Source of the DNA: Micromonospora olivasterospora
GTDB lineage: Bacteria > Actinomycetota > Actinomycetes > Mycobacteriales > Micromonosporaceae
Assembly (NCBI RefSeq): GCF_007830265.1
Contig: NZ_VLKE01000001.1
Location: 6,881,738-6,945,737 of the forward strand
Direction: 5' to 3'
DNA length: 64,000 bases
The notes under the pieces are model-generated. The model did not search any database. It was not told where the DNA came from and saw nothing but the letters and a program-made list of their open reading frames with translations. The translations under genes were made by a program, and so were the position numbers. Positions 20,821 to 45,603 of the stretch are shown in pieces; the first letter of the stretch is position 1, and every line of letters starts with the position of its first letter.

Positions 20821-21003
20821 GTGCGTATCCGTTGGTTCAGGTGCCGGACCAAGGCCCTGCCGTCTCTGCCGAAGCGGGAGCGGGGGAAACACCTGCCGGG
20901 GTGGATGACGCAGCCGACCGATGTCTTCCCGACCAACGACCCGGGCCGCGCCGGCAGGCTGACGAGGGCCCAGGAGTGGCGGGCGAACGGGGGGCGTCCG
21001 TGA
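20821..21003 (+). CDS. Small hypothetical protein
   Basis: This is a 60-residue basic protein starting at GTG (MRIRWFRCRTKALPSLPK), with a purine-rich AGGAGG a few bases upstream. Its stop overlaps the GTG of the next small gene. It is divergent from the XRE gene. No domain is recognised; the coupling and the site make it believable. Confidence 0.55.
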   Translation: MRIRWFRCRTKALPSLPKRERGKHLPGWMTQPTDVFPTNDPGRAGRLTRAQEWRANGGRP

Positions 21004-21356
21004 GGCCCCGCCGGGTGCCGCACCCGCCGCCGCGCTCCACCGGGCCGCGCCCCGCCCCGACGCCGCCGCGCCCGGTCCCCTGGCTCACCCTCGAAGACCA
21101 CTGCGCGGCGGGCCCTGACTGGGTCTGCGAGGCATGTGGCGAGGCTTGGCCCTGCCTCGCGTGGACGAGCCTGCCGGTTGACTCCAGCCTGCGCCGGGCC
21201 CTGCTGCCCAGCTTCGTCGGCCTGACCAGGCAGGCGATCCGAGACCTGCGCGGCAGGCCCGAGGGCCCGGAGCCGCCCGAGATCGTGACGCGCTTCCTGT
21301 GGTTCCTGCCGCTGAACGATGACGAGGCGCGAGCGACGGCGCTGAGGCTGCGCTGA
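21000..21356 (+). CDS. Small zinc-ribbon-like 'WPC' protein
   Basis: This 118-residue protein has a proline/arginine-rich start followed by WVCEACGEAWPCLAWTSLP, a CxxC plus WPC pattern likely to bind zinc. Related actinomycete proteins are often misnamed flavin reductases. It overlaps both neighbours and shares the CxxC..WPC pattern with the next gene, so the two may be an old duplication. Function is unknown. Confidence 0.6.
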   Translation: MRPRRVPHPPPRSTGPRPAPTPPRPVPWLTLEDHCAAGPDWVCEACGEAWPCLAWTSLPVDSSLRRALLPSFVGLTRQAIRDLRGRPEGPEPPEIVTRFLWFLPLNDDEARATALRLR

Positions 21357-21610
21357 TGCCCCGCGTCATCCCACACGTCGCCATGCGCCCGCTGTGGCGG
21401 TGCCGGAACTGCGGTGCGGAGTGGCCCTGCCAGCCGGCCCGGCTGTCCCTGCTCAGCGAGTACCGGGGCAACCGCACCGCGCTCCTCATCTACCTGGCCA
21501 CCCTCATGGCCGAGGCGCGCGACCAGTTCGCCCAACTCCACGACCAGGCGGTGCCGCCCGACCTGACCGACAGGTTCATCACATGGGCACGAGCACGATC
21601 CCGAGACTGA
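21356..21610 (+). CDS. Small zinc-ribbon-like 'WPC' protein
   Basis: This 84-residue protein has WRCRNCGAEWPCQPARLSLL, a CxxC...C pattern, then a helical stretch ending in PPDLTDRFITWARAR. It is the commoner version of this actinomycete family, found beside XRE/DUF397 genes. The ATG overlaps the previous stop (TGATG). It ends just before the decayed tail of giant gene A. Confidence 0.7.
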   Translation: MPRVIPHVAMRPLWRCRNCGAEWPCQPARLSLLSEYRGNRTALLIYLATLMAEARDQFAQLHDQAVPPDLTDRFITWARARSRD

Positions 21611-21649
21611 CGTTGCTCCCACCCAAACGAGAAGGACCCCGGTGTCGCT

Positions 21650-22150
21650 GGCTGCCCTCAGGAGGGTCCGGCAACGGTGCTTGCCGGGCTGACCCGGATC
21701 GGTCACCCCGTACCGCGCCGCCCCGCGACCGTGTGCTTCCTGAACCAGCTGCAGCAGACCACGGTCGCGCAATACCCCGATCCGGCGATGCACCATCGAC
21801 TGCGGTGTGGATGTCGCCGCGGTGAGGGCTGGCTCGCTGGCGGTGATGATCCCGTTGTCGTCCATACGGGTGATGATCCCGTTGTCGTCCATACGGTTGA
21901 TCAGGGCGTTCCACAACTGCCGCAGCCGGTCCCGCTGCGGTGTTGTGGTGGCGATGTGGTCGGCGTGCTGCTCGAACAGCCTCTCGGCCGCATCCGGGTC
22001 GCGCACCCTCCGGCTGCCCGCAGAGGGTTGGGGTTGGGGTTGGTCGGGGTGCAGTGGGGCGGTGGTGGGTGGCTCGTCGGCCGGGTGATGGGGGGTGTCG
22101 CCGGCGTGGAGAGTGCCGGCGTCGGTGCGGGTCACCGCTGGGGATGGTTG
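21650..22150 (-). pseudogene. Decayed 3' continuation of giant gene A with a seventh winged-helix module
   Basis: Beyond the stop of gene A the homology to its linker and module continues in frame: TRTDAGTLHAGDTPHHPADE, then a module at about 21690-22021 (SRRVRDPDAAERLFEQHADH ... HRRIGVLRDRGLLQLV). A 27-base unit (21842-21868) is repeated in tandem at 21869-21895, duplicating RMDDNGIIT inside the module. Homology ends near 21650, 40 bases after a plus-strand gene. Once A stops at 22151 this part is not translated with it. Confidence 0.7.
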
Positions 22151-25100
22151 TCAGTCCATGACCGGCCCCTGGTAGGTGGCCCAGTCGCCGAGCTTCCTGC
22201 GGCCGTCGTCGGGCTGATTGTCGATGGGCGGCGGGCCGAAGTTGGCGGGTATCGCAGCACCGTGCCCGTCGGGCACACCAATGTCGGGAACCCACCCTGC
22301 CGGCCCGGGCATCGGCGACTGAGGTGCCGGATCCTGCACGCCCGGTCCGGGCGGGAACGACTGCGTCCCTGGGAACTGGCTGTGCTGGTCGCCGCTGGGC
22401 GGCGACCACGATGTCGGGCCGGGCGGGGTCTGCGCCCAGGGCGGATCCATCGGTTGCGGCCCGGGGCCGGTTTCCGTGTCCATGGCCGTGGGCGGGCCGA
22501 CCCACGCCGCCGGAGGGAGCGGATCAAACAGATCGAGAGCTGGGTTCCCCTGCCAGGTGGCCCAGTCGCCGAGGTTCCCGCTGCCCTCGCCGGCCTGATC
22601 GTCGATGCGCGGCTGGCCGCGGTCGGTGGACATCGCAGCACCGTGGGCGGTCACATCAATGTCGGAAACCGGCCAACCCGGTTCCGTCCACCCCGCCGGC
22701 CAGGACGACGCGGTGGGGGCATCCGGGTCATCCAGCGGCCCGGGCAGCCAGGGCAGACCCGTGCCCGCCGGCGGGGCAGGTGCCGGCCCGGGCATCGGCG
22801 ACGTATCCCCGCGGTCCAGCCAGGACAGATCCTCACTACCCTGCGGGCGGCGGTCCGGTTCGGGGGCAGCGCCCGGCACCGATGCCTGCCCAGGCTGACC
22901 CGGATCGGTCACCCTGTACCGCGCCGCCCCGCCACGGTGTGCCTCCTGGACCAGCTGCAGCAGACCACTGCCGCGTAATGCCCCGATCCGGTCGCGCACC
23001 GTCTGCCGCGGTGTGGATGTCGCCGCGGCGAGGGCTGGCACGTTGGCGGTGATGATCCCGTCGTCGTCCATACTGCCGATCAGGGCGTCCCACAACTTCA
23101 GCAGCTGTTCCCGCTGCCGCGTTCTGATGTGGCCGGCGTGCTGGTCGAACAGCCTCCGGGCCTCATCCCGGTCGCCCTGCGGGCGGCGGTCCGGTTCGGG
23201 GGCAGCGCCCGGCACCGATGCTTGCCCAGGCTGACCCGGATCGGTCACCCCGTACCGCGCCGCCACGCCACCGTGTGCTTCCCGGACCCGCTGCAGCAGA
23301 CCACGGTCGCGCAATACCCTGATCCGGTTACGCACCGCCGGCTGCGGTGTGGATGTCGCCGCGGCGAGGGCTGACCACCTGGCGGTGATGATCCCGTCGC
23401 CGTCCATACGGTTGATCAGAGCGTTCCACAACCGCCGCAGCTGATCCCGCTGCCGCGTGATGCGGCCGGCGTGCTGGTCGAACAGCCTCCGGGCCTCATC
23501 CCGGTCGCGCACCCTCCGGCTGCCCGCAGTGGGTTGGGGTTGGGGTTGGGGTTGGGGTTGGGGTTGGTCGGGGTGCAGCGGGCGGTGGTGGGTGGCTCGT
23601 CGGCCGGGTGATGGGAGGTGTCGCCGGCGTGGACAGTGCCGGCGTCGGTGCGGGTCACCGCTGGAGAGGGCGCGAGGGATGGCTGCCAGTCCATGACCGG
23701 CCCCTGGTAGGTGGCCCAGTCGCCGAGGTTCCCGCTGCCCTCGCCGGCCTGATCGTCGATGCGCGGCTGGCCGCGGTCGGTGGACAGCGCAGCACCGTGG
23801 GCGGTCACATCAATGTCGGAAACCGGCCACCCCGGTTCCGTCCACCCCGCCGGCCAGGACGACGCGGTGGGGGCATCCGGGTCATCCAGCGGCCCGGGCA
23901 GCCAGGGCAGACCCGTGCCCGCCGGCGGGGCAGGTGCCGGCCCGGGCATCGGCGACGTATCCCCGTGGTCCAGCCAGCACAGATCCTCACTACCCTGCGG
24001 GCGGCGGTCCGGTTCGGGGGCAGCGCCCGGCACCGATGCCTGCCCAGGCTGACCCGGATCGGTCACCCTGTACCGCGCCGCCCCGCCTCCGTGTGCCGCC
24101 TGGACCAGCTGCAGCAGACCACGGTTGCGTAATGCCACGATCCGGTTATGCACCGTCGACGGCGGTGTGGATGTCGCCGCGGCGAGGGCTGGCTCGCTGG
24201 CGGTGATGATCCCGTCGTCGTCCATACTGCCGATCAGGGCGTTCCACAACTTCAGCAGCTGTTCCCGCTGCCGCGTTCTGATGTGGCCGGCGTGCTGGTC
24301 GAACAGCCTCCGGGCCTCATCTCGGTCGCCCTGCGGGCGGCGGTCCGGTTCGGGGGCAGCGCCCGGCACCGATGCTTGCCCAGGCTGACCCGGATCGGTC
24401 ACCCCGTACCGCGCCGCCACGCCACCGTGTGCTTCCTGGACCAGCTGCAGCAGACCACTGCCGCGCAATGCCACGATCCGGTGATGCACCGTCTGCTGCC
24501 GTGTGGATGTCGCCGTGGCGAGGGCTCGCTCGCTGGCGGCGATGGTCCCGTCGGCGCCCATACGGTCGATCAGGGCGTTCCACAACTTCGGCAGCTGATC
24601 CGGCTGCCATGCTGTGGTGACGATGCGGTCGGCGTGCCGGGCGAACAGCGCCCGGGCCTCATCCTGGTCAAGCACCCACCGGCTGCCCTCAGGAAGGTCC
24701 GGCAACGGTGCTTGCTGGGACTGACCCGGATCGCTCACCCCGCCCGGGGACTCGACCTGTCCAGTGTCCTGCGGCGGATCCCACGCGTCGACGTGTGGTG
24801 TACCCAGATCCATCCCGTCAAGATCCGGGTCCCATACGTTCAGGAATTCCTGATCACCGGACGCCGGGCCAGTACCAGACGGGTCGTCGAGGTTCCTGTT
24901 GCCGTCGTCGAGCTGCTTGCCGATGGGCGGGCCGAAGTCGGCGGGTATCGCAGCACCGTTCCCGTCGGGCACACCAATGTCGGGAACCCGCCACCCTGCC
25001 TGCCAGGGCGATGCCGTGGGGATGCCCGGGTCGTCCAGCGGCCCGGGCAGGCCCGTGTCCGTCGAGGAGACAGGTGCCGGCCCGGGCATCGGCAACGTGT

Positions 25101-28100
25101 CCCCGTGGTCCAGCCGGGACAGATCCTCACCCTGCGGGCGGTCCGGTTCGGGGGCAGGGCCCGGCACCGGTGCTTGTTGGGGCTGACCCGGATCGCTCAC
25201 CCTGTACTGCGTCGCCACGCTACTGTGACTTTCCTGGACCAGCTGCAGCAGACCACTGCCGAGCAATACCTTGATCCGGTCGCGCATCGTCTGCCGCGGT
25301 GTGTTTGTCGCCGCGGCGAGGGCTAGCTGGCTGGCGGTGATTTTCCCGTTGTTGTCCATAAGGCGGATCAGGGCGTCCCACAACCGCCGCAGACCATCCC
25401 GCTGCCGTTTTGTGGTGGCGATGTGGTCGGCGTGCCGGGCGAACAGCGTCCGGGCCTCATCCTGGTCGAGCACCCACTGGCTGCCCGCAGGAGGGTCCGG
25501 CAACGGTGCTTGCTGGGGCTCACCCGGATCGCTCACCCGGTACCGCGCCGCCACGCGACCGCGACTTTCCTCGACCAGCTGCAGCAGACCACGGTCGCGC
25601 AATACCCCGATCCAGTTACGTACCGGCTTCTGCGGTGTGTCTGTCGCCGCGGCGAGGGCTCGCCCGCTGGCGGTGATGGTCCCGTTGTTGTCCATACTGC
25701 CGATCAGGGCGTCCCACAACCGCCGCAGATCATCCCGCTGCCGCTGAGTTATGGTGGCGACGATGTGGTTGGCGTGCCGGGCGAACAGCGCCCGGGCCTC
25801 CTCCTGGTCGAGCACCCACCGGCTGCCCTCAGGAAGGTCCGGCAACGGTGCTTGCTGGGACTGACCCGGATCGCTCACCCCGTCCGGGGACTCGACCTGT
25901 CTAGTGTCCTGCGGCGGCTCCAACGCGTCGAGGTGTGGTGTACCCAGATCCATCCCGTCAAGATCCGGGTCCCATACGTTCAGGAATTCCTGATCACCGA
26001 ACGCCGGGCCAGTACCAGACGGGTCGTCCCTGCCCAGTGGATCGGAGTGGGGGAAGTCGGCAGGGTCGGGGGCGGTGGTGTCTGCCCGCATGGCCTGGGA
26101 CGGGCCGCGTGGCGGGCTGGTGGAGGCGAGCAGGAACGCGCTGGTGTCGGTGCCGGTCATGGTTGTCGGCCGCGGGTGGCGGGCGGCCTGGCCGAGGAGA
26201 TCGGTGATGGTGGCGGGCCGACCGTCCCCGTCGAACGCGGCCACCCGGGTGCTGGATGCGAACAGGTGTCGCAGCCACGGATCACGTATCGGGTCGTCCG
26301 GCTCGGGTCGGTCGGCGGCGCCGGGCAGCAGAGGGTCCCGCACCTGGATCCTCGGCGGCCCGGACTCCTGCGGCTGGCTGTGTAGGGCGAACACGTGCTG
26401 CGGTTCGTTCGGTGGCGCGGCCCTGACCACCACCATCGACCCCGGCGCCGCCCGCAACGCGGCCAGCACGTCCTCTCCCGCGACCCCGTCCGGGTGGGCG
26501 ACCCGCTCGGGTACCGTGTCGAGGATCTCCATCAGTTGCGGCCAGCCCATGGTGGGCGCGAGCCGGCCGTCCGGCCCGATGATCCGGTCGTCGAACACCG
26601 CCCGGTTGCCCAGCCGCTTGTACTCGGTGTGGAACACATCGAGAGTGGCCGCCACGCACCACCACAGGTCACCGCTGCCGGGACGTGCCTGCTGCGCGGC
26701 GGCCCAGTCGGCGGCCCGCTGCCCGGACCCGAACGGCGTGAGATCCTGCCCAGTCGCCGCGGCAGCCGGCTCGCCGTGTCTGCCGGGGCCGCCACTGACC
26801 GGTTCGTCCCGCAACGACACATCCCGCCACGAGCCCGCGTCGCTGAACGAATCCGCGTCGCTGAACGAATCCGCGTCGCTGAGGCCGTGCTTGCCAGGCA
26901 CCCCGCCAAGCGACTCGTCCGGCAAGGACACGTCACTGATCGACATGGTGTCGCTGGTGTCGAGGTTGCTGAACACGTCATCGCTGGACACCGACATGTC
27001 ACTGGCGGTGGCGTTGTCACGGCCGCCGACGCTGGCGTTGTCACGGCCGCCGGCGCTGGCGTGGTGGTGGATCGGCGTGCCATCGGCGGGGTAGGCGGCG
27101 CCAGCGGGCACGGTACTACCGGCGCTGACCGCGTCGGGGGTGCCTGGCGTCCCCGCCGTGCCGGGCGTGGCGGGCGTGGCGCTGCCGGCGGCCTGGGCGA
27201 GGACCTGCTGGTACCGGTCCTTCCATTCCTGTTGGAACGATCCGGCGAGGATGTCGTGACCGGCCGGATCCAGGCCGTACCGGTGGGCCAGCGCGGTGAA
27301 CTGGGCCCGCGCCAGACCAGCCGCCGCCACGGTGTGCCGCTCGGGCGTCACCGGCACCGCCGGCGCGCCGGCACGCCCGCTTTCCTGAACGTCGATGGCA
27401 GCCACACCGGCGGCCGCTTCCGTGACGCCGGGAACGACCGCGGCCGAGAAACGGGCGGGCAGGTCGACGACCACCTGCCGGACCGCGTCCGCCACGGCAC
27501 TGACCCGCGCGGCGTCGGGACCGGCCACCACAGCGGGCAGCACGGCCGGCAACACGGCGGGGGCACCGAGGATCGCATCGACCCTCCGGTCCACCTGGCT
27601 CCACACGTCGCCCTCGACCACCGCGCGCACAGCGGCGGACGGCACCGCCACCCCAGCGCCCCCGGCGCACCCGCGCCCCCCGCCATGCCAGCTGCCGACG
27701 ACGTGCCGGGGCCTGTCGGCGTGCCGGGGCCTGTCGACGTGCCGGGGCCTGTCGGCGTGCCGGGGCCTGTCGGCGTGCCAGCGCCTGTGGGTAGGCCGGC
27801 GGCGAGGTACTGGTCGATGTGGTGTTGGACGGCCAGGTGCGCGATCGAGCGCAGCGCCTGCCGGTCGAACTCCGCCGGCAGCGCCGCGATCACCTGCTCC
27901 GACCACACCTCGGCCGGGACCTGCCCACCCGCGGACGCCAACGCCTCGGCCATCCGGGCCACCGCCCGCTCCCGGACACCCGTCAGAAATCCCTCGGTCA
28001 GCGCGGCAGCGGGCAGACCGACATCGGACAGGAAACCCGCAACAACCCGATCACCCTCCCGGGCCTCGACCCAGCCGGCGAAAACCCGCTCGATGGGTAT

Positions 28101-29438
28101 GGCGAGGGCGGCCATGCTCTTGCCCGCCCGAGCCACCCCGGCCAGCAACCCACCGTAACGGTCCACCAGATCCTGCTGGAACCCTCGCCACCGCTCGACC
28201 ACCGGCCCACCCGCTGCCGCGACCCACGCCGGCACCGGCGCAGCCGGCACCGACAGGCTCGGCACCGACCACGACGGCACCGACGGGTCCAGGGGCGGCG
28301 TGGGCAGGTCCAGCAGCTTCGGCGTGGGCAGGTTCGACGCCGGCAGCGGCGGCGGCGCTGCCGGCGGCGGGGCCTGCCCGCCGGTACCCGCAGCCGTCGG
28401 ATCGTCGACCCCAGCCTGGTACCCCGTGGACGTGTCCCCACCAACCGGTGTCGGCCCCACCGGCATGACCGGCTTCCCGTCGGGCGTGAAGTCGGGGCGA
28501 GGCATCTGCACCCGGGGCCCATTCATGGCGCGACTCACGACGAGCCCGAGGCCGCTCGCGGCCGCCCCGCCCGCCCCCGACAGCGCCCCGGACAGAAGAT
28601 CCGCACCGAGATTGCCGGTGTCGTAGTACCCGTCGACCATCAGGCTGGCACCGATACCGAACAGCCCCTCCGTGCCGGTCTCCAACACCGGCCGCGTCAG
28701 CAGATCGGTCAACAGCATTCTGGTGCTGTCCGACAGGCCGAGTTTGCTGACCGCGGCGGCGACCGCGCCAGCGGCCTTGCCCAACGCCGGCCCGCCCACC
28801 GTGCCGAGGAACGCCACCGCCCCCGCGTACGCCGCCTGCTTACCGACCGCCGACCAGTTCACCCCCGACTGCAAACCATCGGTCATCATCGACACCTGCG
28901 CCAGCAGCGCAGAACCCGGCATGGTCAGCATCTGCATCGCCGTGCTACTCGCCGCCGAGCGGACCAACGCCGAACGCAGGATCGCCTGGATGACGCTCCG
29001 CGCCTCGGCGAGGTGTGCCATCGCCCCCACGGGATTCCAGAACCACATCGCGGCGGCGGCGGCGAACTCGGCCTGCATGAAGGAGAACATGGCCACCGTC
29101 GTACGCTTGCCGGTCTCCGTCTCCAGGAAGAACTTCTTCTCCGCATCGACCACGGCGAGCATCAGATCGGCCGTCTCGGCCATCTTCCCCACGAACGGAA
29201 GGGTCTGCGCCACGAACCGGTCGAAGGCCTCACCCTCCCCCGCCCCCCGGACCGCCCTGATCGTCTGCTCCAGCAACGGACCCAGCACCGTACGCACCCG
29301 ATGCTCCAGCGATTCCAGCGTGCCGATGTCATCCCGCAACAACGGCAGCTCCGCCCGGGACACCCTGACCCCGGTGAACGCTTCCAAAGCCCGCAGCGAA
29401 CTCTCACTGAGCTCAAGGGTCGGAACGGCGGCGACCAT
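22151..29438 (-). CDS. Giant gene A: polymorphic-toxin-like protein with papain-like domain and six winged-helix modules (two frameshifts)
   Basis: Start ATG 29438; the first frame runs to about 27680, the second to about 23580, the third to TGA 22151. Adding one base in each of two G/C runs (27651-27684, 23576-23585) gives exactly 2,430 codons. Layout: a helical region of about 350 residues (LELSESSLRALEAFTGVRVS; DAEKKFFLETETGKRTT; WFWNPVGA; hydrophobic SAVGKQAAYAGAVAFLGTVG) shared with B and C and resembling WXG100-like T7SS substrates; a Pro/Ala stalk; a Ser/Asp-rich stretch; a cysteine-protease/deamidase-like domain at about 904-1096 (WWCVAATLDVF, QHVFALH, RDPLLPG as possible Cys-His-Asp); then winged-helix modules separated by Pro/Trp linkers. 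The TGA replaces a Trp codon (DW) kept in paralogues. A conflict or recognition role is inferred; no immunity gene was found. Confidence 0.7.
22894..23525 (-). repeat. Two winged-helix modules of gene A (A5-A6)
   Basis: Modules lie at about 23230-23525 and 22894-23180, after a long Pro/Trp linker. They carry the same motifs as A1-A4 (ALAAATSTPQPAVRNRIRVL; PALAAATSTPRQTVRDRI). The DNA between and around modules is over 90% alike by eye, so slippage or gene conversion between them is expected. Confidence 0.72.
23531..23567 (+). repeat. (TTGGGG)n hexamer repeat
   Basis: Five full TTGGGG units plus part-units run in tandem on the plus strand, encoding the Pro-rich linker on the other strand. Shorter versions stand at the same linker in other copies (near 22028 and 62405). 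The run can form a G-quadruplex and lies about 15 bases from one of the frameshifts. Confidence 0.8.
24048..25828 (-). repeat. Four winged-helix modules of gene A (A1-A4)
   Basis: Modules lie at about 25520-25828, 25183-25484, 24384-24686 and 24048-24333. Each reads W/R-V-x-D-x-x-E-A-R-x-L-F-x-x-H-A-x-x-I, a helix with LWDALIGSMD or LWNALI, DGIITASEPALAAATSTP, then a recognition-helix-like TVHNRIVALRNRGLLQLV and a wing EAHGGGAARYRVTDPGQP. The helix-turn-helix spacing (ALAAATSTPQxTVxxRIxxLRxxGLL) matches MarR/GntR-type winged helices. Linkers differ in length between pairs. Confidence 0.75.
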
Positions 29439-29589
29439 CGCGCAACGCTCCCTTCCTGCCCGGATCAGGGGCACCCAGTGCGAATCAGTCAGCCGCGCTG
29501 ACCGCCACCCAGCCCCGACCATCTGGCCGAAGCCGTCGCGGAGTCCGGCGTCCCACTCGCGCCGTAAGCCGGCCGCGAGCCGTTTGGTA
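29439..29589 (-). promoter_or_regulatory. Upstream region of giant gene A
   Basis: The 75-90 bases before ATG 29438 match the leaders of B and C on their coding strands (TGGTCGGGGCTGGG, CTGAT, ACTGGGTG, GGGAGCGTTGCGCG before the start). A GGAAGGGAG site lies about 12 bases before the ATG. Beyond that the similarity stops. Confidence 0.5.
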
Positions 29590-30209
29590 TCAGGCGGGTC
29601 TCGGCGTGCGCGGCGAACTGGGTCGACGCGCCCTCCGCCGCCACCTCCACGTGGTGCTCAAAGGACAACTGGCACCCAGGCCGTCGGTGAGCCGGTCCAG
29701 GGCGGCATTAGCCGGCGACGTCGACCGATCGGGAGCCAACGGGAAGTGCGCGGCGAAGTTCGCATCCACGTGTGCCAGGTACACCGAACGGATCCGCCCC
29801 AGCGCTGTCGTCGATCCTGCCGACCAGATCCAGGGCCGCTGCCCGGCGCGGCCGTGGACGGCGAGGCGCTGTACGGCGCTCGCATCGCCACCGCTCCGGT
29901 GTTCCTGCTCGCGGCGATCGGACGCGGCACCGGTGTGATCCTGGAACAGCGCCAGGTCCGCGTGAGCCGTGTCCTGGCCAGTGCGTACGGGGCGGCGCAG
30001 GTTTCATGCGAGTCCCCGAGCCGGGCGAGCGTTTCGGCCGCTGCGCTGTCGAGAGCGGCGACATGATCGGAGACGAAGACTCGGAGCGAGTCGTGGACCG
30101 CTCTGGCCAGTGCCACGCCGGCAGCCCGACCGTTGGACATGGCTGATGCCCCGCGCCAGCTGGCGATCCAGCCGATCGCCGGATTCTGCGCGGGCCGGGC
30201 CTGACCGGA
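29590..30209 (-). pseudogene. Broken hypothetical gene
   Basis: Minus-strand frames read MSGQARPAQNPAIGWIASWR, then ALARAVHDSLRVFVSDHVAA, LDSAAAETLARLGDSHETC, and after a frame change VYLAHVDANFAAHFPLAPDR. The pieces look like parts of one gene with at least one frame break. No family is recognised. A short transposase-like stretch on the other strand interrupts it. Confidence 0.35.
29845..29960 (+). mobile_element. Fragment of an ISAs1-type transposase
   Basis: The plus strand reads AAVDGEALYGARIATAPVF and LLAAIGRGTGVILEQRQV, the pattern of the catalytic-core segment of ISAs1 (H-repeat-associated) transposases (A-x-DGK-x-L-x-G ... LLAA ... GVVL-x-Q). About 38 codons survive with no start and no ends. 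Confidence 0.5.
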
Positions 30210-30240
30210 CATGAGCACTCTCCTTGGGATACACACTGCT

Positions 30241-30600
30241 CCATAACCCGGGATTCCTATCAGGAAGCTAGGGTATTGGATAGAACGCCAGCAAGCGATA
30301 CCGCAGAGGTCGAGCAGGGATGTAGGTTCCGTCACAGGAGCCGGATGCTGTTGGTGATCTTGGTTGCTTGATCGCCGTGGGGGTGCTTCGCTGCTGGAGC
30401 TGGGGGCGCTTCGATGCCTAGATAGCGCTATGTCGATGGGTGTTGGTTCGGCTTCTGGCGCCCCGACACCCGGCTTTCGGCTGTGGTGACCGGCAGCGGA
30501 AGGTTCGGTGAATTGGGCCGGCTCGAGTTGCCGGCTGCGGAGCGAGCACTGCAGGACTGGGGAACGATCGCCGTTCCCCTCACGGCGGAACTGCCTGCCA
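30241..30600. other. Unassigned intergenic stretch
   Basis: About 360 bases, less GC-rich than the surroundings near 30241-30330, contain no frame with recognisable protein sequence and no clear repeat. It looks like junk between mobile-element scars. Confidence 0.5.
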
Positions 30601-30762
30601 GTGCGTCTACTGGCGTACCTCGCCGCCCTTGTCGGCGCGCTCCTCGTCGCCGCTCCGGCGCAGGCGCACGTCCGCGCGGCCTCGGTCGCCGTCGACCTGC
30701 GCAGCCAGGGCGACGGCGCCGCGGCTGTCGTCGACGTGGAGTACGGCGTCCTCGCCCGACTG
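30601..30762 (+). pseudogene. Truncated N-terminus of a secreted/membrane protein (HupE-like)
   Basis: From GTG 30601 the frame gives a signal-peptide-like LLAYLAALVGALLVAAPAQA followed by HVRAASVAVDLRSQGDGAAA and VVDVEYGVLAR, resembling the N-terminus of HupE/UreJ-type proteins. The similarity ends abruptly near 30762 where the IS remnant region begins. Confidence 0.4.
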
Positions 30763-30814
30763 CTGAGTCTCTGGGCTTGCATGCCACCCGGATCCTGCTG
30801 GCTTATTGCCGGGT

Positions 30815-31128
30815 TCATGCAGCCAGGGCGAGGCGGGCGAGGTGGCTGGTGCGGGTTCGGTCGAGGGGGTGACCGTTCTGGTAGGCGGTCAGTCGTATCA
30901 GGTTAACCGCGACGGCGCTGAAGACGTTTTGCAGGTGGGTCTTGTCCAGGCCGCGGTAGCGGGCTTGGCGTATGCCAGTGACGTTGGCGGCTTGGCTGAC
31001 GGTCCCTTCGACGCCGGCGCGTCGGGCGTATTTGGCCTGCCAGGCATTGGTGTGCTGCTCGGCGCGGGCCAGTTGTATCGCGTGGTGGACCTCGCGGGGA
31101 CGCACGGACAGCTTGCGGCCGGTGTGCC
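30815..31128 (-). mobile_element. C-terminal remnant of an IS1182-type transposase
   Basis: About 104 codons read GHTGRKLSVRPREVHHAIQL, ARAEQHTNAWQAKYARRAGVEG, then RYRGLDKTHLQNVFSAVAVN and LIRL, the standard end of IS1182-family DDE transposases. The front part is missing; the break lies at the start of the conserved leader of gene B. Confidence 0.75.
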
Positions 31129-31139
31129 CCCGCCGGGGC

Positions 31140-31424
31140 CCGGCGCGGGGTGTGGATGTGTGGGCGGGGATGGCTGGTGTCGCCGGTGTCGACTACCGTC
31201 ACTTTGCGGTGAGGGGTGCGTGGCTCTCGGCGATCAACACTGTCGGTGGTGGTGGGCGTCGGTCGGGTCGTGGGGTGAGGTGTGGGGGTTTTGGCCGGCG
31301 GGTGGGCGACGGGGTGGTGAGGTTGTCGCCGGCGAGGTGGTCGGGGCTGGGGTGGGCGGTCCGCGGGGCTGGCTGATCCGTACTGGGTGTCCTTGGTTCG
31401 GGGGCGGGGAGGGAGCGTTGCGCG
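31140..31424 (+). promoter_or_regulatory. Conserved leader of giant gene B
   Basis: About 285 bases before gene B are roughly 90% alike to the leader of gene C (43603-43890, opposite strand). A small hairpin-like element, ACCGTCACTTTGCGGT, is kept with a G-U-compatible change between copies. Conservation this far upstream suggests promoter or leader-RNA control shared by the paralogues. A GGGGAGGGAG ribosome-binding site precedes the TTG start. Confidence 0.5.
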
Positions 31425-34400
31425 TTGGTCGCCGCTGCTTTTTCGACTGTTGAGCTCAGTGAGAGTTCGTTGCGGGTTTTGGAAGGGTTCACCGGGGTGC
31501 GGGTGTCCCGGGCGAAGTTGCCGTTGTTGTGGGATGACATCGGCACGCTGGAGATGCTGGCGGGTCGGGTGCGTACGGTGCTGGGTCCGTTGCTGGAGCA
31601 GACGGTCAGGGCGGTCCGGCAGGCGGGGGAGGGTGAGGCCTTCGACCGGTTCGTGGCGCAGACCGCTCCGTTCGTGGGGAAGATGGCCGAGACGGCCGAT
31701 CTGATGCTCGCCGTGGTGGAGGCGGAGAAGAAGTTCTTCCTGGAGACGGAGACCGGCAAGCGTACGACGGTGGCGATGTTCTCCTTCATGCAGGCCGAGT
31801 TCGCCGCCGCCGCCGCGATGTGGTTCTGGAATCCCGTGGGGGCGGCGGCGCACCTCGCCCAGGCGCGGACGATCATTCAGGTGGTCCTGCGTTCGGCGTT
31901 GGTGCGGTCGGCGGCGAGTAGCACGGCGATGCAGATGCTGACGATGCCGGGTTCTGCGTTGTTGGCGCAGGTGTCGATGATGACCGACGGTCTGCAGTCG
32001 GGGGTGAACTGGTCGGCGGTCGGTAAGCAGGCGGCGTACGCGGGGGCGGTGGCGTTCCTGAGCACGGTGGGCGGGCCGGCGTTGGGCAAGGTCGCTGGCG
32101 CTGTCGCCGCCGCGGTCAGCAAGCTCGGCCTGTCGGACACGACCAAGATGCTGTTGACCGATCTGCTGACGCGGCCGGTGTTGGAGACCGGCACGGAGGG
32201 AATCTTCGGTATCGGTGCCAGCCTGATGGTCGACGGGTACTACGACACCGGCAATCTCGGTGCCGATCTTCTGTCCGGGGCGCTGTCGGGGGCGGGCGGG
32301 TCGGCCGCGAGCGGGCTCGGGCTCGTCGTGAGTCGCGCCATGAATGGGCCCCGGGTGCGGGTGCCGCATATCGCGTTCACGCCCGACGGTAGGCCGGTCC
32401 TGCCGGTGGCGTCGACACCGGTTGGTGTGGACCCGTCCACGGGCTACCAGAGCGGGGTCGACGATCCGAAGGCTGTGGCTGCCGGCACGCAGGCCCCGCC
32501 GCCCACCCCGCCGCCGCTGCCGGCATCGAACATGCTCACGCCGAAGCTGGACCTGCCCGTGCCGCACCTGGACCCGTCGGTGCCGTCGTGGTCGGTGCCG
32601 AGCCTGTCGGTGCCGGCTGCGCCGGCGCCGCAGTGGGTCGCGGCAGCGGGTGGGCCGGTGGTCGAGCGGTGGCGACAGTTCCAGCAGGATCTGGTGGACC
32701 GTTACGGTGGGTTGCTGGCCGGGGTGGCTCGGGCGGGCAAGAGCATGGCCGCGCTCGCCATACCGGTCGAGAGGGTTTTCGCCGGGTGGGTCGACGCCCG
32801 ACAGGGTGATCGGGTTGTTGCGGCTTTCCTGTCCGCGGTCGGTCTGCCCGCTGCCGCGCTGACCGAGGGGTATCTGACGGGTGTCCGGCAGCGGGCGGTG
32901 GCCCGGATGGCCGAGGCGTTGGCGTCCGCGGGTGAGCAGTTCCCGGCCGAGGTGCGGGCGCAGCAGGTGGTCGCCGGGCTGCCGGCGGAGTTCGACCGGC
33001 AGGCGCTGCGCTCGATCGCGCACCTGGCCGTCCAACACCACATCGACCAGTACCTCGCCGCCGGCCTACCCACAGTCGCGGGCACGCCGACAGGCCCCGG
33101 CACGCCGACAGGCACCGGCGTGTCGTCGGCCGCTGGCACACCGGGAGGCGCTGGCACGTCGTCGGGCGCGGGCGTGCCGGCAAGTGCCGGGGCGGGGGTG
33201 CCGTCCGCCGCCGCGGTCGAGGTGGTCGAGAGGGAAACGCGGAACTGGGTGGACCGAAGCCTCGATGCGATCCTCGGCACCTCCGCGCTGCCCGCAGTGC
33301 TGCCCGCCGTGCTGCCCGCTGTGCTGCCCGCTGTGGTGGCCGGTCCCGACGCCGCGCAGGTCAGTGCCGTGGCGAACGTGGTCCGGCAGGTGGTCACCGA
33401 CCTGCCCGCCCGTTTCTCGGCCGCGACCATTGCCGATATCACCGCACCGCACGCCATCCCGTTCCCGGCGGACGCCCCGGCAAGCTGGCGTACCGGCGCG
33501 CCGGCAGTGTCGGTGACTGTCGAGCAGCACACCGCAGCCGCGGCCAGCCTGGCAGAAAAGCAGTTCACCGCCCTGGCCCACCGCTACGGTGTCGACCCGG
33601 CCGGTCACGACACCCTCGCCGAACTGTTCCGAGGAGACTGGGTGGATGGATACCATCAGGTGCTCACGCAGGCCGGCGGCAGCACGCCCGGCATGCCGGA
33701 CACGGCCAGCGCCCGCGGTACGGAGCCGGGCGGCGCTGCCTTCCGCGTTGACGCCACGCCGATCTACGACAGCGACACGACCCCGGTCAGTGACGTGTCC
33801 GTGGCAAGCGATGCGGTGTTCAGCCCCGATCTCGGCTCCAGGGACACGGATTCGACCGGTTTCAGGGACACGGGTTCGATCGGTGACGTGTCGGTGCTGG
33901 ACGAACCGGTCGGTGTCGACTCTGCCGGTTTCGGCGAGCCGGCCGTCGCGGCTACCGGGTCGGCCGGGCAACGAATCCACGAGCTCGCCAGCGGCGGCTA
34001 CGGCCGTGCCAGCGACGCTCAGTTGCGCCGCCTCGCCGCGGACATCGGTATCCAGACGGCGTCGCCGGACGGGGTCCTGCCCCGACTGTTCGAGGTGTCC
34101 AGGGACATCGTCATGGCGGACACGTTCAGCGGGGTGTACTTCGCAGACCCGGCGGCGGCGGATCCGGACGCGGCGGCGGATCGCACGGCGGCGCAGGCGC
34201 TGCCGTGGGTGCGGGGATGGTTCACCATCGCCGGGCACCGGAACCTGGCCGAGCGGCTGGCCGACGATCCCGTGCGTCAGGCCTTGTTCCTCCGGATGCT
34301 CACCGCCTCGCCCGCCTGGCAACACGCCGTCGCGCAGGCGCGACAGCGCGGCGGCGACGCACCCGACATCATGCTGGTCTGGTGCGACGCGGCATGGCAG

Positions 34401-37400
34401 GCACCGGGACAGGCCACCTCCTTCGGTGAATGGCTGCGCACCCGGCTGCGCGCCCGGCGGCTGATGTCGTCCACGCACGAGGTGGACCAGATACCCGGCG
34501 AGCTGCGGCCACACGTGGACGAGCCGGTGCGGTCGGTGTTGTTCTCGGACGCCTCGGTGGAGTTGTTCGGACCGGATCTCGTGGAGGCGGTACGGACCGC
34601 GGACATCATCGACAACGGTCAGGAACCCGGCGTCCGCTGGCCGGACCAGCAAGACTTCGCCGCCGCTGGCGGCCGGCACCGGTGGGCCGGCAACACCTCA
34701 CACGGGCAGTCACCCGATCCAGCGCAAGACGGCGACCCGTCCGGTCCTGGCCCGGCGTCCGCCGCCCAGTGGATGGGGGGCCCGTCGCGGGATCCAAAGG
34801 CGGAATTGCCGGTGCCGGGCCCCGCCCTCGGACCGGACCGCCCGCAGGGTGAGGACCTGTCCTGGCTGGACGACTGGGATGCGCTGCCGATGTCCGGGCT
34901 GGCACCTGCCCCGCCGGCAGGCACGGGGCTGCCCGGGCTGCCCTGGCTGCCCTGGCTGCCCTGGCCGCTGGACGCCCCGGACGCCCCCAGCGCGTCGGCC
35001 TGGACGGCGGGGCCGGCCGCGTCGGCCTGGACGGTGGGGTGGACGGAACCGGGGTGGCCGGTTTCCGGCATTGATGTGACCGCCCACGGTGCTGGGATGT
35101 CCACCGACCCCGGCCAGCCGCGCGATCAGGCCGGCGACGGCGGGGATCTCGGCGACTGGGCCACCTGGCAGGGGCCGGACATGGACTGGCAACCATCCCT
35201 CGCGCCCTCCCCGGCGGTGACCCGCACCGACGCCGGCACTGTCCACGCCGGCGACACCCCCCATCACCCGGCCGACGAGCCACCCACCACCGCCCCACTG
35301 CACCCCGACCAACCCCAACCCACTGCGGGCAGTCAGTGGGTGCGCAACCGGAATGATGCCCAGACGCTGTTCGACCAGCACGCCGACCACATCGCCACCA
35401 CAACACAGCAGCGGGAACAGCTGCCGCAGTTGTGGAACGCCCTGATCAACCATATGGACGACGACGGGACCATCACCGTCACCGAGTCAGCCCTCGCCGC
35501 AGCGACATCCACACCGCAGACGACGGTGCATAAACGGATCGTGGTATTGCGCGACAGTGGTCTGCTGCAGCTGGTCCAGGAAGCACACAGTCGCGTGGCG
35601 GCGCGGTACGCGGTGAGCGATCCGGGTCAGCCCCGGCAAGCACCGATGCCGGACCTTCCCGCGGGCAGCCAGTGGGTACGCAACCGGAATGATGCCCAGA
35701 CGCTGTTCGACCAGCACGCCGACCACATCGCCACCACAACACAGCAGCGGGAACAGCTGCCGCAGTTGTGGAACGCCCTGATCAACCATATGGGCGCCGA
35801 CGGGATCATCACCGTCACCGAGTCAGCCCTCGCCGCAGCGACATCCACACCGAAGCAGACGGTGCATGACCGGATCAGGGTATTGCGCGACAGTGGTCTG
35901 CTGCAGCTGGTCCAGGAAGGACGCCGTGGTATGGCGGCGCGGTACGGGGTGAGCGATCCGGGTCGGCCCCGGCAAGCACCGTTGCCGGGCCTTCCCGCGG
36001 GCAGCCAGTGGGTACGCAACCGGAATGATGCCCGGACGCTGTTCAACCAGCACGCCGACCACATCGCCACCACAACACAGCAGCGGGAACAGCTGCCGAA
36101 GTTGTGGAACGCCCTGATCAACCATATGGACGACGACGGGACCATCACCGCCAGCGAGTCAGCCCTCGCCGCAGCGACATCCACACCGCGGCCGACGGTG
36201 CATAAACGGATCGTGGCATTACGCGACCGTGGTCTGCTGCAGCTGGTCCAGGAAGCACACCGTGGCGTGGCGGCGCGGTACGCGGTGACCGATCCAGGTC
36301 AGCCCCGGCAAGCACCGGTGCCGGGCCCCGCCCCCGAACCGGACCGCCCACAGGGTAGTGAGGATCTGTCCCGGCTGAACCACGGGGATACGTCACCGAT
36401 GCCCGGGCCGGTACCTGCCCCGCCAGCGGGCACGGGCCTGCCCGGGCTCTCAGGGCCGCCCGGGCCGCTGGACGCCCCGGACGCCCTCACGGCGTCGGCC
36501 TGGCCGGCGGGGCCGCCCGCGTCGGCCTGGCCGATGGAGGAGGGACCGGCGGGACCGGCGGGGCCGGTTTCCGGCATTGATGTGACCACCCACGGTGCTG
36601 CGATCTCCACCGACCCCGGCCAGCCGCGCGATCAGGCCGGCGACGGCAGCGGGAACCTCGGCGACTGGGCCACCTGGCAGGAGGACCCAGCCCTCGATCT
36701 GTTTGATCCGCTCCATCCGGCGGCGTGGGTCGGCCCGCCCACGGCCGTGGGCACGGGACTCTACCCCGGGCCGCAACCGATGGATCCGTCCTGGGCGCAA
36801 GCCCCGCCCGGCCCGACACCGTGGTCGCCGCCCAGCGGCGACCAGCCCAGCCAGTTCCCAGGGACACAGTCGTTCCCGCCCGGACCGGGCATGCAGGAAC
36901 CGGCACCTCAGTCGCCGATGCCCGGGCCGGCACCTGCCCCGCCGGCGGACACGGGGCTGCCCGGGCTGCCCTGGCTGCCCGGGCCGCTGGACGACCCGGA
37001 CGCCCCCACCGCGTCGGCCTGGACGGCGGGGCCGCCCGCGTCGGCCCGGACGGCGGGGTGGGCGGAACCGGGGTGGCCGGTACCCGGCATGGGCGTGACC
37101 GACGGGCACGGTGCGGCGATCTCCACCGACTTCGACCAGCCGGGCATCGACGATCAGGCCAGCGACGGCGGGAACCTCGGCGACTGGGCCGGCGACGGCG
37201 GGAACCTCGGCGACTGGGCCACCTACCAGGGGCCGGACATGGACTGGCAGCCATCCCTCGCGTCCTGGCCGGCGGTGGCCCGCACCGACGCCGGCGCTGT
37301 CCACGCCGGCGGCACCCCCCATCACCCGGCCGACCAGCCACCCACCACGCCCGCCTCGCCGCACCCCGACCAACCCCAACCCCAACCCGCTGCGGACAGC

Positions 37401-38558
37401 CGGCGGGTGCGCGACCCGGGCGAGGCCCGGGCGCTGTTCGACCAGCACGCCGGCCACATCGCCACCACAACACCGCAGCGGGACCGGCTGCGGCAGTTGT
37501 GGAACGCCCTGATCGACCGGATGGACGACAACGGGATCATCACCGCCAGCGTGTCAGACCTCGCCGAGGCGACATCCACACCGCGGCCGACGGTGCATCG
37601 CCGGATCGGGGTATTGCGCGACAGTGGTCTGCTGCAGCTGGTCCAGGAAGCACACGGTCGCGGGGCGGCGCGGTACGGGGTGAGCGATCCGGGTCCGCCC
37701 CGGCAAGCACCGCTGCCGGCCCCTCCCGAGGGCAGCCAGTGGGTACGCGACCCGGGCGAGGCCCGGGCGCTGTTCGACCAGCACGCCGGCCACATCGCCA
37801 CCACAACACGGCAGCGGGAACCGCTGCGGCAGTTGTGGAACGCCCTGATCGACCGGATGGACGACAACCGGATCATCACCGCCAGCCTGTCAGACCTCGC
37901 CGAGGCGACATCCACACCGCAGCAGACGGTGCATCACCGGATCGGGGTATTGCGCGACAGTGGTCTGCTGCAGCGGGTCCAGGAAGCACACAGTCGTGTG
38001 GCGGCGCGGTACGGGGTGAGCGCTCCGGTTCAGCCCCGGCAAGCACCACCGCCGGGCCCTGCCCTCGGACCGGACCGCCCGCAGGGTGAGGACCTGTCCT
38101 GGCTGGACCACGGGGCTACGGTGCCGATGCCCGGGCCGGCACCTGCCCCGCCGGCGGGCACGGGCATGCCTGGGCTGCCCGGGCCGTTGGACGACCCGGA
38201 CGCCCCCACCGCGTCGTCCTGGCCGGCGGGGTGGGCGGAACCGGGGTGGCCGGTACCCGGCATGGGCGTGACCGACGGGCACGGTGCTGCGATCTCCACC
38301 GACTTCGACCAGCCGGGCATCGACAATCAGGCCAGCGACGGCGGGAACCTCGGCGACTGGGCCACCTACGAGGTGGACCCAGCCGGTTCGCTCGATGTGG
38401 ACCCGGCCGATCTGCTCTATCCGTTTGCGGCCGTGGGCACGGAACCCGACCCCGAGCCGCAACCGATGGATCCGCCCCGGCCGCAGGCCCCGCCCGGCCC
38501 GACATCGTGGTCGCAGCTCAGCGGCGACCAGCCCAGCCAGTCCCCCGGGACTCAGTAG
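31425..38558 (+). CDS. Giant gene B: polymorphic-toxin-like protein with a distinct effector region and five winged-helix modules
   Basis: A single open frame of 2,377 residues from TTG 31425, matched by the same TTG in gene C. Residues 1-350 are almost the same as in A and C (helical, WXG100-like, with FFLETETGKRTT and hydrophobic AVGKQAAYAGAVAF). A Pro-rich stalk and coiled region follow to about 760. Residues about 845-1075 differ completely from A (IHELASGGYGRASDAQLRRL, DIVMADTFSGVYFADP, SSTHEVDQIPGELRPH, DASVELFGPDLVEAVRTADI): an unknown candidate effector. Winged-helix modules stand at about 1301-1402, 1412-1514, 1524-1627, 1990-2093 and 2102-2203. The TAG stop replaces a Ser codon (TCG) in the linker and linker homology runs on for some 50 bases. 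No signal peptide is visible. Confidence 0.78.
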   Translation: MVAAAFSTVELSESSLRVLEGFTGVRVSRAKLPLLWDDIGTLEMLAGRVRTVLGPLLEQTVRAVRQAGEGEAFDRFVAQTAPFVGKMAETADLMLAVVEAEKKFFLETETGKRTTVAMFSFMQAEFAAAAAMWFWNPVGAAAHLAQARTIIQVVLRSALVRSAASSTAMQMLTMPGSALLAQVSMMTDGLQSGVNWSAVGKQAAYAGAVAFLSTVGGPALGKVAGAVAAAVSKLGLSDTTKMLLTDLLTRPVLETGTEGIFGIGASLMVDGYYDTGNLGADLLSGALSGAGGSAASGLGLVVSRAMNGPRVRVPHIAFTPDGRPVLPVASTPVGVDPSTGYQSGVDDPKAVAAGTQAPPPTPPPLPASNMLTPKLDLPVPHLDPSVPSWSVPSLSVPAAPAPQWVAAAGGPVVERWRQFQQDLVDRYGGLLAGVARAGKSMAALAIPVERVFAGWVDARQGDRVVAAFLSAVGLPAAALTEGYLTGVRQRAVARMAEALASAGEQFPAEVRAQQVVAGLPAEFDRQALRSIAHLAVQHHIDQYLAAGLPTVAGTPTGPGTPTGTGVSSAAGTPGGAGTSSGAGVPASAGAGVPSAAAVEVVERETRNWVDRSLDAILGTSALPAVLPAVLPAVLPAVVAGPDAAQVSAVANVVRQVVTDLPARFSAATIADITAPHAIPFPADAPASWRTGAPAVSVTVEQHTAAAASLAEKQFTALAHRYGVDPAGHDTLAELFRGDWVDGYHQVLTQAGGSTPGMPDTASARGTEPGGAAFRVDATPIYDSDTTPVSDVSVASDAVFSPDLGSRDTDSTGFRDTGSIGDVSVLDEPVGVDSAGFGEPAVAATGSAGQRIHELASGGYGRASDAQLRRLAADIGIQTASPDGVLPRLFEVSRDIVMADTFSGVYFADPAAADPDAAADRTAAQALPWVRGWFTIAGHRNLAERLADDPVRQALFLRMLTASPAWQHAVAQARQRGGDAPDIMLVWCDAAWQAPGQATSFGEWLRTRLRARRLMSSTHEVDQIPGELRPHVDEPVRSVLFSDASVELFGPDLVEAVRTADIIDNGQEPGVRWPDQQDFAAAGGRHRWAGNTSHGQSPDPAQDGDPSGPGPASAAQWMGGPSRDPKAELPVPGPALGPDRPQGEDLSWLDDWDALPMSGLAPAPPAGTGLPGLPWLPWLPWPLDAPDAPSASAWTAGPAASAWTVGWTEPGWPVSGIDVTAHGAGMSTDPGQPRDQAGDGGDLGDWATWQGPDMDWQPSLAPSPAVTRTDAGTVHAGDTPHHPADEPPTTAPLHPDQPQPTAGSQWVRNRNDAQTLFDQHADHIATTTQQREQLPQLWNALINHMDDDGTITVTESALAAATSTPQTTVHKRIVVLRDSGLLQLVQEAHSRVAARYAVSDPGQPRQAPMPDLPAGSQWVRNRNDAQTLFDQHADHIATTTQQREQLPQLWNALINHMGADGIITVTESALAAATSTPKQTVHDRIRVLRDSGLLQLVQEGRRGMAARYGVSDPGRPRQAPLPGLPAGSQWVRNRNDARTLFNQHADHIATTTQQREQLPKLWNALINHMDDDGTITASESALAAATSTPRPTVHKRIVALRDRGLLQLVQEAHRGVAARYAVTDPGQPRQAPVPGPAPEPDRPQGSEDLSRLNHGDTSPMPGPVPAPPAGTGLPGLSGPPGPLDAPDALTASAWPAGPPASAWPMEEGPAGPAGPVSGIDVTTHGAAISTDPGQPRDQAGDGSGNLGDWATWQEDPALDLFDPLHPAAWVGPPTAVGTGLYPGPQPMDPSWAQAPPGPTPWSPPSGDQPSQFPGTQSFPPGPGMQEPAPQSPMPGPAPAPPADTGLPGLPWLPGPLDDPDAPTASAWTAGPPASARTAGWAEPGWPVPGMGVTDGHGAAISTDFDQPGIDDQASDGGNLGDWAGDGGNLGDWATYQGPDMDWQPSLASWPAVARTDAGAVHAGGTPHHPADQPPTTPASPHPDQPQPQPAADSRRVRDPGEARALFDQHAGHIATTTPQRDRLRQLWNALIDRMDDNGIITASVSDLAEATSTPRPTVHRRIGVLRDSGLLQLVQEAHGRGAARYGVSDPGPPRQAPLPAPPEGSQWVRDPGEARALFDQHAGHIATTTRQREPLRQLWNALIDRMDDNRIITASLSDLAEATSTPQQTVHHRIGVLRDSGLLQRVQEAHSRVAARYGVSAPVQPRQAPPPGPALGPDRPQGEDLSWLDHGATVPMPGPAPAPPAGTGMPGLPGPLDDPDAPTASSWPAGWAEPGWPVPGMGVTDGHGAAISTDFDQPGIDNQASDGGNLGDWATYEVDPAGSLDVDPADLLYPFAAVGTEPDPEPQPMDPPRPQAPPGPTSWSQLSGDQPSQSPGTQ
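35327..36308 (+). repeat. Three tandem winged-helix modules of gene B (B1-B3)
   Basis: Modules lie at 35327-35630, 35661-35966 and 35998-36308, period about 336 bases. Each contains RNDAQTLFDQHADHIATTTQ, LWNALINHMDDDGTITV, ESALAAATSTP and VHKRIVVLRDSGLLQLVQE. They are near-identical apart from the turn and recognition-helix start (TPQTTVHKRI, TPKQTVHDRI, TPRPTVHKRI) and the wing (SRVAARY, RGMAARY, RGVAARY). Confidence 0.78.
37394..38033 (+). repeat. Two tandem winged-helix modules of gene B (B4-B5)
   Basis: Modules lie at 37394-37704 and 37731-38033 with DPGEARALFDQHAGHIATTT, IDRMDDNGIITASVSDLAEA and VHRRIGVLRDSGLLQLVQEA. They are closer to module A7 than to B1-B3, so modules have moved between paralogues. 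Confidence 0.75.
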
Positions 38559-40231: not shown

Positions 40232-40234
40232 AAT

Positions 40235-45600: not shown

Positions 45601-45603
45601 GAT

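Follow-up and report, generated by a model that had tools for sequence, protein, structure and literature searches.

The right-hand end of the 6.95-Mb contig of Micromonospora olivasterospora (whole genome 7.07 Mb) carries genes for toxin-like giant proteins, named A to D here, in three of which a module of about 99 residues, predicted to be a winged helix, occurs singly or in arrays. All the position numbers refer to the window, which is the whole stretch of 64,000 nucleotides analysed; G000 denotes this genome and G050 that of a second Micromonospora species. The modules of both species are under excess amino-acid change at their putative ligand face, and the excess is strongest at the start of the recognition helix. 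We suggest that the arrays may be hypervariable recognition arrays joined to a putative effector, with DNA as the most likely ligand and conflict as their use, a tentative reading to which we give somewhat less than an even chance.

Winged-helix modules in the window and in the genus

A module profile was built from six hand-picked modules and searched over all six frames of the window. It returned six copies in A and one in its tail, five in B and one in D, which reproduced the count of the original prediction made from the sequence alone. The 12 full modules scored 142–185 bits (six of them had built the profile), and the possibility of a chance repeat was dropped because the scores were so high. 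In alignment A1, nine other modules were 59–88% identical to the first. Gene A lies on the minus strand and is split over several frames, with four modules in frame 23419–28050, two in frame 22154–23809 and the seventh in a third frame, 20840–22150, which the span of the original prediction did not reach; its open frame changes near 27.3–27.9 kb. The features of A and B and the single module of D are as follows.

27348–29438, minus strand: N-terminal helical region of A, in the first frame of the broken gene, 87% identical to the N-terminus of B (B residues 2–548)
26044–26733, minus strand: middle domain of A, with conserved Cys/His/Asp (C26, H113 and D133), papain-like by eye only
25516–25818, minus strand: winged-helix module 1 of A, 166.1 bits
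25180–25476, minus strand: winged-helix module 2 of A, 153.7 bits
24382–24678, minus strand: winged-helix module 3 of A, 172.4 bits
24046–24327, minus strand: winged-helix module 4 of A, 142.2 bits
23228–23515, minus strand: winged-helix module 5 of A, in the next frame, 147.6 bits
22892–23173, minus strand: winged-helix module 6 of A, 145.2 bits
21686–22009, minus strand: module 7 in the tail of A, in the third frame, 70.8 and 99.2 bits in two overlapping pieces
31425–33056, plus strand: N-terminal helical region of B, of a paralogue family
33966–34766, plus strand: conserved middle domain of B, with invariant GH and WCD motifs, a putative effector
35337–35633, plus strand: winged-helix module 1 of B, 184.9 bits (residues 1–99 of the AlphaFold2 model)
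35673–35969, plus strand: winged-helix module 2 of B, 180.9 bits (residues 113–211 of the AlphaFold2 model)
36009–36305, plus strand: winged-helix module 3 of B, 179.1 bits
37404–37700, plus strand: winged-helix module 4 of B, 172.8 bits
37740–38036, plus strand: winged-helix module 5 of B, 163.4 bits
62091–62387, minus strand: single winged-helix module of D, 177.0 bits

Module 7 of A has an internal 27-base tandem duplication, an instance of the repeat slippage by which the arrays may be changing.

The winged-helix fold that had been predicted for the module was borne out by Pfam, AlphaFold2 and Foldseek. Protein B matched HTH_20 at 8.9e-21, with the score summed over its five repeats, and the families over curated cut-offs were HTH_20, MarR_2, HTH_24 and IclR among others, their scores also adding over the repeats; A scored 28 bits with HTH_20 against a cut-off of 27. 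AlphaFold2 was given a pair of B modules with an alignment of nine window rows and returned two winged helices with a mean predicted local distance difference test score (pLDDT) of 82.8. The elements are helices at residues 5–19 and 23–37, a strand at 45–48, a helix at 50–57, the recognition helix at 61–74 and strands at 77–81 and 89–93 around the wing, and this predicted topology (helix-strand-helix-helix-strand-wing-strand) matches the winged-helix superfamily. The module is thus a winged helix as modelled, although the relative placement of the two modelled modules is unreliable because the predicted template modelling score was 0.51. The Foldseek neighbours of the pair in PDB were largely winged-helix proteins, three of them at E ≤ 0.001, with mostly low TM-scores and often high probabilities; they include CodY, NolR, a Rep-DNA complex, MarR proteins, SelB, RPC62, ScpB and ESCRT-II. 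We take these neighbours to be a mixture of DNA, RNA and protein binders, ScpB and ESCRT-II presumably having protein-binding and not DNA-reading winged helices, so the fold alone cannot name the ligand. Neither a different fold nor a known non-DNA-binding repeat family emerged, though ScpB and ESCRT-II stand among the neighbours.

The profile search for other module-bearing proteins, which the original prediction had proposed, led to 19 loci in G000 by our own count and to the second species. At least 151 module matches were counted across G000, where 150 of 215 candidates were scored. In the fetched stretches 189 matches were found in G000 and 134 in G050 at 25 bits or more, some being halves truncated where a frame or a fetched stretch ends, and the full modules numbered 180 and 133, respectively. 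A further G050 gene adds 17 full modules and brings that species to 150, and the two species together to about 330. For 294 of 313 modules the nearest neighbour belongs to the same species, in keeping with homogenisation inside each genome. In G000 many copies, A among them, have broken frames, and these breaks may be real or may be sequencing error. One array gene of G050 is present twice, in opposite orientations, at C2:3108652–3120067 and C2:3173062–3182969. Both copies carry the same succession of residues on the recognition helices, seemingly the product of a large and recent inverted duplication.

Module arrays were found in two of 160 genomes of the genus, G000 and G050, with 31 candidates scored per genome; 14 others gave one weak match each (E 2.9e-5 to 9.7e-4) to ordinary helix-turn-helix (HTH) regions and no array. 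Outside G000, no array was found among 397 genomes of the order at E ≤ 1e-3 (20 with one weak match to ordinary regulators) or among 396 of the phylum at E ≤ 1e-4 (three with one such match). A scan of genome contigs with the module confirmed no relative, the absence being weak as this short-pattern method may leave out near relatives. Searching 72,556 plasmid records with one typed module returned nothing, and viral contigs yielded no confirmed relative. A plasmid- or phage-borne family was therefore rejected, yet one copy lies on the 126-kb second contig of G000 (locus L085, C2). This array gene, with 13 modules and an A-type middle domain, stands beside IS21-type DNA on a small contig, and therefore the family may move on a plasmid.

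Amino-acid change across the modules and the WD40 repeats

The selection tests used 313 of 320 aligned modules, seven short ones being dropped, and were counting methods only: pairwise, over nearest-neighbour pairs, and by parsimony on a tree. The ratio of nonsynonymous to synonymous proportions of differences (pN/pS) was 1.68 in G000 (90 nearest-neighbour pairs) and 1.87 in G050 (66 pairs). The control regions of the same proteins, with 4–9 pairs each, gave 0.69 and 0.37 for the N-terminus, 0.63 and 0.50 for the second helical region and 0.30 and 0.32 for the middle domain of the type in B in G000 and G050, respectively. Because these controls stay at 0.3–0.7, codon bias alone cannot explain the ratio of the modules. 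The most variable column was position 66 (2.75 bits; D, A, R, H, N, K, S and Y), followed by 62, 60 and 24. Sites 66, 62, 61 and 60, at the exposed start of the recognition helix, changed at 4.6–12.3 times the synonymous level in both species, and sites 50, 51 and 83 were also high in both. The parsimony count on the tree agreed overall with the excess seen over nearest pairs. Weighting by G+C, from the composition of fourfold sites, lowered the excess, and sites 61, 62 and 66 still stood at 4.4–10.3 times.

Counted over each modelled element, the change peaked in both species at residues 58–66, covering the turn and the first half of the recognition helix (3.64 and 5.39), followed by the wing (2.64 and 2.76) and the preceding helix 49–57 (2.19 and 2.64); strand 75–81 was high only in G050 (2.43 versus 0.72 in G000). 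The result held in four genes with array frames that look unbroken and run through to the short conserved end; their pN/pS was 1.84 (53 modules, 26 pairs), with site 66 at 12.5. The 313 modules hold 126 distinct residue sets at positions 60–62 and 66, and adjacent modules differ there in 183 of 195 cases. In a permutation test over all pairs, a five-position set reached values as high in 6 and 147 of 200000 permutations; this result is supportive only, the set having been chosen by homology but also after the column entropies were known. A 15-position "face" set, chosen after the entropies, was not used as evidence.

Gene D offers a parallel in a second repeat.

50046–63614, minus strand: D, giant WD40-repeat protein, C-terminal part of a longer gene, by Pfam WD40; 59 repeats by our own profile

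Pfam placed WD40 along D in 35 and 9 stretches in the two parts scanned. The repeats continue over the contig end on the minus strand of C1:1–6000 (locus L147), so that D runs across it from 63614–64000, and therefore the 6.95-Mb contig probably represents a circular chromosome that was opened within the D gene. Counts were made on 122 of 187 aligned repeats with at most three gaps (100 of 130 in G000 and 22 of 57 in G050). The repeats are almost identical except at a few hypervariable positions, chiefly 8, 10, 29 and 31, with 3, 7, 18 and 44 also variable in one or both species, and their pN/pS was 1.47 in G000 and 1.82 in G050. Thus, two unrelated repeat folds in one gene family are under the same regime. 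In gene 4796778 of G000, the same N-terminus, an A-type middle domain, WD40 repeats and a winged helix are combined. WD40 arrays are usually protein-binding. Positions 8, 10, 29 and 31 of the D repeat align with 12, 14, 30 and 32 of the fungal HNWD repeat by our own alignment. In the available part of one fungal study, HNWD positions 10, 11, 12, 14, 30, 32 and 39 are those used for high dN/dS, and selection falls on sites of the interaction surface (PMC12222747).

Domain architecture of the array genes and their surroundings

The typical giant protein, as read from the sequence, starts with a conserved N-terminal region, continues through a middle domain that is likewise conserved and then carries winged-helix modules in a chain. 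This architecture was not recognised in the original prediction, and no description of winged-helix arrays of this kind was found in the open-access literature. The N-terminal region occurs in eight of 160 genomes of the genus, and the six without arrays carry it in open frames of 1,971–14,824 residues. Its named relatives were all from Micromonospora (3 of 3 loci); in strains MW-13 and MP36 and in M. rubida it heads giant frames that are cut by the locus ends and so were read in part. Unusually large predicted proteins, of 14824, 9313 and 11802 residues, are headed by this region in the open frames of loci L121–L123 (genomes G033, G102 and G012, respectively). The WXG100-like N-terminus that had been proposed was not supported, as neither this nor another known secretion domain was matched in the region by Pfam or NCBIfam at E up to 10, and an AlphaFold2 model of B residues 1–1122 had a pLDDT of 30, was unusable and was not used. 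The type VII secretion system (T7SS) machinery was represented by three EccCa matches over the cut-off in each of G000 and G050.

After the N-terminal region, the array proteins carry one of two middle domains, of A type or B type. The B-type domain was found in 13 and 11 copies in two of 160 genomes of the genus, all 24 at array loci, and its GH and WCD motifs are invariant. In the A-type domain, C26, H113 and D133 are invariant in all seven sequences, including those of strains MW-13 and MP36, and its papain-like appearance was recognised by eye. Neither domain matched a family in Pfam or NCBIfam at E up to 10, and a profile search of PDB gave one match each at E of about 1, which is not significant. 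PADLOC had no match for A, C or the D piece, and its matches on B, such as CARF/Csa3 and SoFic, fell on the winged-helix modules. The middle domain is read as the effector because of its position, its conservation and the published architectures, as far as the accessible part of that work describes them (PMC3482391), and by this analogy it is probably the effector. The effector-like domain of the original prediction is accordingly a putative effector with no family match in these databases.

The modules follow each other at a regular period, with 142 of 200 short links giving a step of 112 residues, followed by 113 (31) and 111 (14), and the runs hold one to five modules. Between runs stand long linkers (n = 65, median 268 residues) in which Pro makes up 20.7%, Gly 13.5% and Asp 10.5%, and Lys and Cys stand at 0.0%. 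Seven of the 54 module-bearing frames of the fetched stretches, from both species, end in a module followed by RRNVSRD or RRTVSRD, three including B end in a linker-like tail finishing in PGTQ, and many others stop at apparent frame breaks. The L145 gene has the N-terminus, a B-type middle domain, 17 full modules and the end RRHVSRD in a single frame of 4443 residues, and a gene at 1248332 has a similar layout with 15 modules. The largest array in one frame had 19 matches, 17 of them full modules. The G000 frame 6620049 runs past its modules through 462 residues of a different kind, and the WD40-bearing genes likewise extend past their winged-helix module. The DNA about 250–400 bases upstream of array genes is alike among copies, mostly within a species, and may be a shared promoter; no evident shared protein was found as an upstream partner gene, the conserved DNA being open in several frames and read as non-coding.

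The third paralogue of the window, C, is as follows.

40697–43602, minus strand: C, in two frames, with the N-terminus and a partial A-type middle domain; 74% and 90% identical to the N-terminus of B

No winged-helix module was found in C by the same six-frame profile search. At 40230–40760 (minus strand) its middle domain breaks into two copies of a different repeat, HTH-like by eye, which was found nowhere else among the fetched loci, and a DDE transposase gene (39380–40222, Pfam DDE_Tnp_4) lies just beyond. Between C and D, a run of mobile elements (44641–50008, minus strand) includes IS4/5-type transposases at 45095–45550 and 45618–47066, a ParA-like fragment at 47890–48408 and a serine resolvase at 48791–49600.

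Candidate ligand and comparison with known systems

Two features of the module favour DNA as the ligand. Positions 61, 62, 65 and 66 carry 0–3.5% hydrophobic residues, and the net charge of residues 45–93 is +2.4, against +2.6 in 29 ordinary regulators, a rough comparison because these regulators are weak matches of the module profile itself and many are near-identical. The module copies are near-identical within a genome, presumably by duplication and exchange, while the residues of the putative ligand face (start of the recognition helix, the helix before it and the wing) vary in excess, within the limits of the counting tests. We propose that each module would contact DNA through its recognition helix, and that a run of modules would read a composite site and bring the effector to it or trigger the effector there. 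The likely use would be in conflict, through recognition of non-self DNA or of DNA from competitors or relatives. A more specific version is doubtful: each module would read a few bases through residues 61, 62 and 66, duplicated and exchanged runs would spell a site, and the repertoire would be one of some twenty targeting proteins with a conserved effector.

Several observations weigh against the proposal of DNA-reading arrays. The whole module is neutral on average, acidic residues make up 61–66% at positions 50, 52 and 55 and 32% at 66, and position 60 is 20% hydrophobic. The contrast in hydrophobicity with the WD40 repeats of D is partial, as their positions 8, 10 and 29 have 12, 52 and 18% but 7 and 31 only 1–2%. 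WD40 arrays occur in the same gene family, some of the Foldseek neighbours are presumably RNA- or protein-binding winged helices, and the middle domains match no family. Among pairs with at most eight differences, the enrichment fell short of significance in G000, where 20349 of 200000 permutations reached it (16 pairs), and was moderate in G050, where 4075 of 200000 did (36 pairs). Positions 2, 7, 10, 17 and 24 are also fast though off the expected face (17, 24, 2 and 7 mainly in G050), site 50 leads the tree-based count in G050, and the helical moment of change along the recognition helix was not significant (p 0.21 and 0.35). Exchange among modules violates the assumptions of tree tests and can mimic selection, an effect lessened, though not removed, by the nearest-pair design and the controls within genes. 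In addition, the frame breaks affect many of the G000 copies.

The same recognition-array logic could apply with winged helices that have turned into protein or peptide binders for kin or non-self discrimination, a serious possibility, and DNA was placed somewhat ahead of protein. The WD40 repeats of D, presumably protein-binding, share the signature of excess change, and gene 4796778 joins them to the N-terminus, A-type middle domain and winged helix; the acidic residues on the helix preceding the recognition helix, the hydrophobic share at position 60 and the presence of ScpB and ESCRT-II among the fold neighbours point the same way. Against protein binding, the hydrophobic residues at positions 61, 62, 65 and 66 are few compared with 52.5% at WD40 position 10, though WD40 positions 7 and 31 are equally low, and the charge of the module core equals that of ordinary winged HTH regulators. 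The earlier suggestion that the arrays bind DNA or a partner thus survives and is sharpened by the hypervariable putative ligand-facing residues. A simple protein ruler, which had also been suggested, is disfavoured because it would not predict excess change at the putative ligand face.

It is improbable that the arrays are structural spacers or adhesive, wall-like repeats whose variation is the drift of exposed residues in decaying, recently amplified genes. The regular 112-residue period, the Pro/Gly-rich linkers and the frame breaks in many G000 copies would be in line with it. Drift, however, predicts a pN/pS near 1 over exposed sites, whereas the ratio at recognition-helix sites exceeds 1 several-fold, both in the two species and in the genes with unbroken array frames, and that of the middle domain stays at 0.3. 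Targeted mutagenesis of the variable codons, for instance by a diversity-generating retroelement, was rejected as very improbable on the evidence of codon 66 and of the reverse transcriptases: codon 66 is mostly NNC with its first two bases free, but at this G+C content a constant third base is to be expected, T as the second base occurs there in one of 313 modules, against random A-to-N change, and all RVT_1 places (8 and 10 in the two genomes) also match group II intron reverse transcriptase (6 of 20 such matches over the cut-off, the rest partial or weak).

The modules resemble ArsR/MarR-type regulators in the predicted fold and the HTH sequence pattern. Those regulators are single dimerising domains, unlike the arrays with up to 17 full modules in one frame. 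The arrays are also like transcription activator-like (TAL) effectors and TALE-like proteins in being near-identical modules with a few variable residues at the expected DNA-reading surface. TALE repeats are helical hairpins of about 34 residues packed in a superhelix, whereas the present modules are separate 99-residue winged helices on linkers, with 112 as the commonest period, and are only candidates for DNA reading. The natural full modules of the two species, which differ at defined recognition-helix residues, would serve as a ready library for studying target reading by winged helices, and if the ligand is DNA, they could give a modular DNA-binding scaffold that does not depend on TALEs or zinc fingers.

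Polymorphic toxin systems with T7SS and internal papain- or caspase-like peptidases have been described (Zhang et al, 2012; PMC3482391). As far as the accessible part of that work goes, the present proteins are similar in being very large actinobacterial proteins, with relatives in the genus of the sizes given above and a putative peptidase mid-protein. They differ in that the last module is followed by seven residues (RRxVSRD) or a linker-like tail and no recognised toxin in the frames examined, with frame 6620049 and the WD40-bearing genes as exceptions, and in that the N-terminal region had no WXG match. The diversifying conflict systems of multicellular bacteria, in the portions of the two reports available, have repeat-bearing or diversified sensors with peptidase-type effectors (PMC7159879; PMC10907252). 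The present proteins may share this feature, as repeat-bearing putative sensors joined to a putative peptidase-type effector, and winged-helix arrays are not among the repeats named in those portions.

In mode of change the arrays are like the HNWD or HIC-repeat NOD-like receptors (NLRs) of Podospora, such as HET-D and HET-E, the modules here being homogenised within each genome and hypervariable at the putative interaction face. In the accessible parts of the fungal studies, such receptors carry near-identical tandem repeats under concerted evolution, with a few hypervariable codons and diversifying selection on the interaction face (PMC12222747; PMC4986451). Unlike them, the present proteins are bacterial, toxin-like and giant, their repeat is a winged helix and not WD40, ANK or TPR, and Pfam at E ≤ 1 matched neither NACHT/NB-ARC nor HET in A and B or in the A and C heads (among the best 25 of the 26 families matched for B, with D partly covered). 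Diversifying repeat receptors have been described, in these same parts, for the WD40, ANK and TPR repeats of fungal NLRs (PMC12222747; PMC4986451), and a winged-helix version would extend the non-self recognition repertoires to a new fold.

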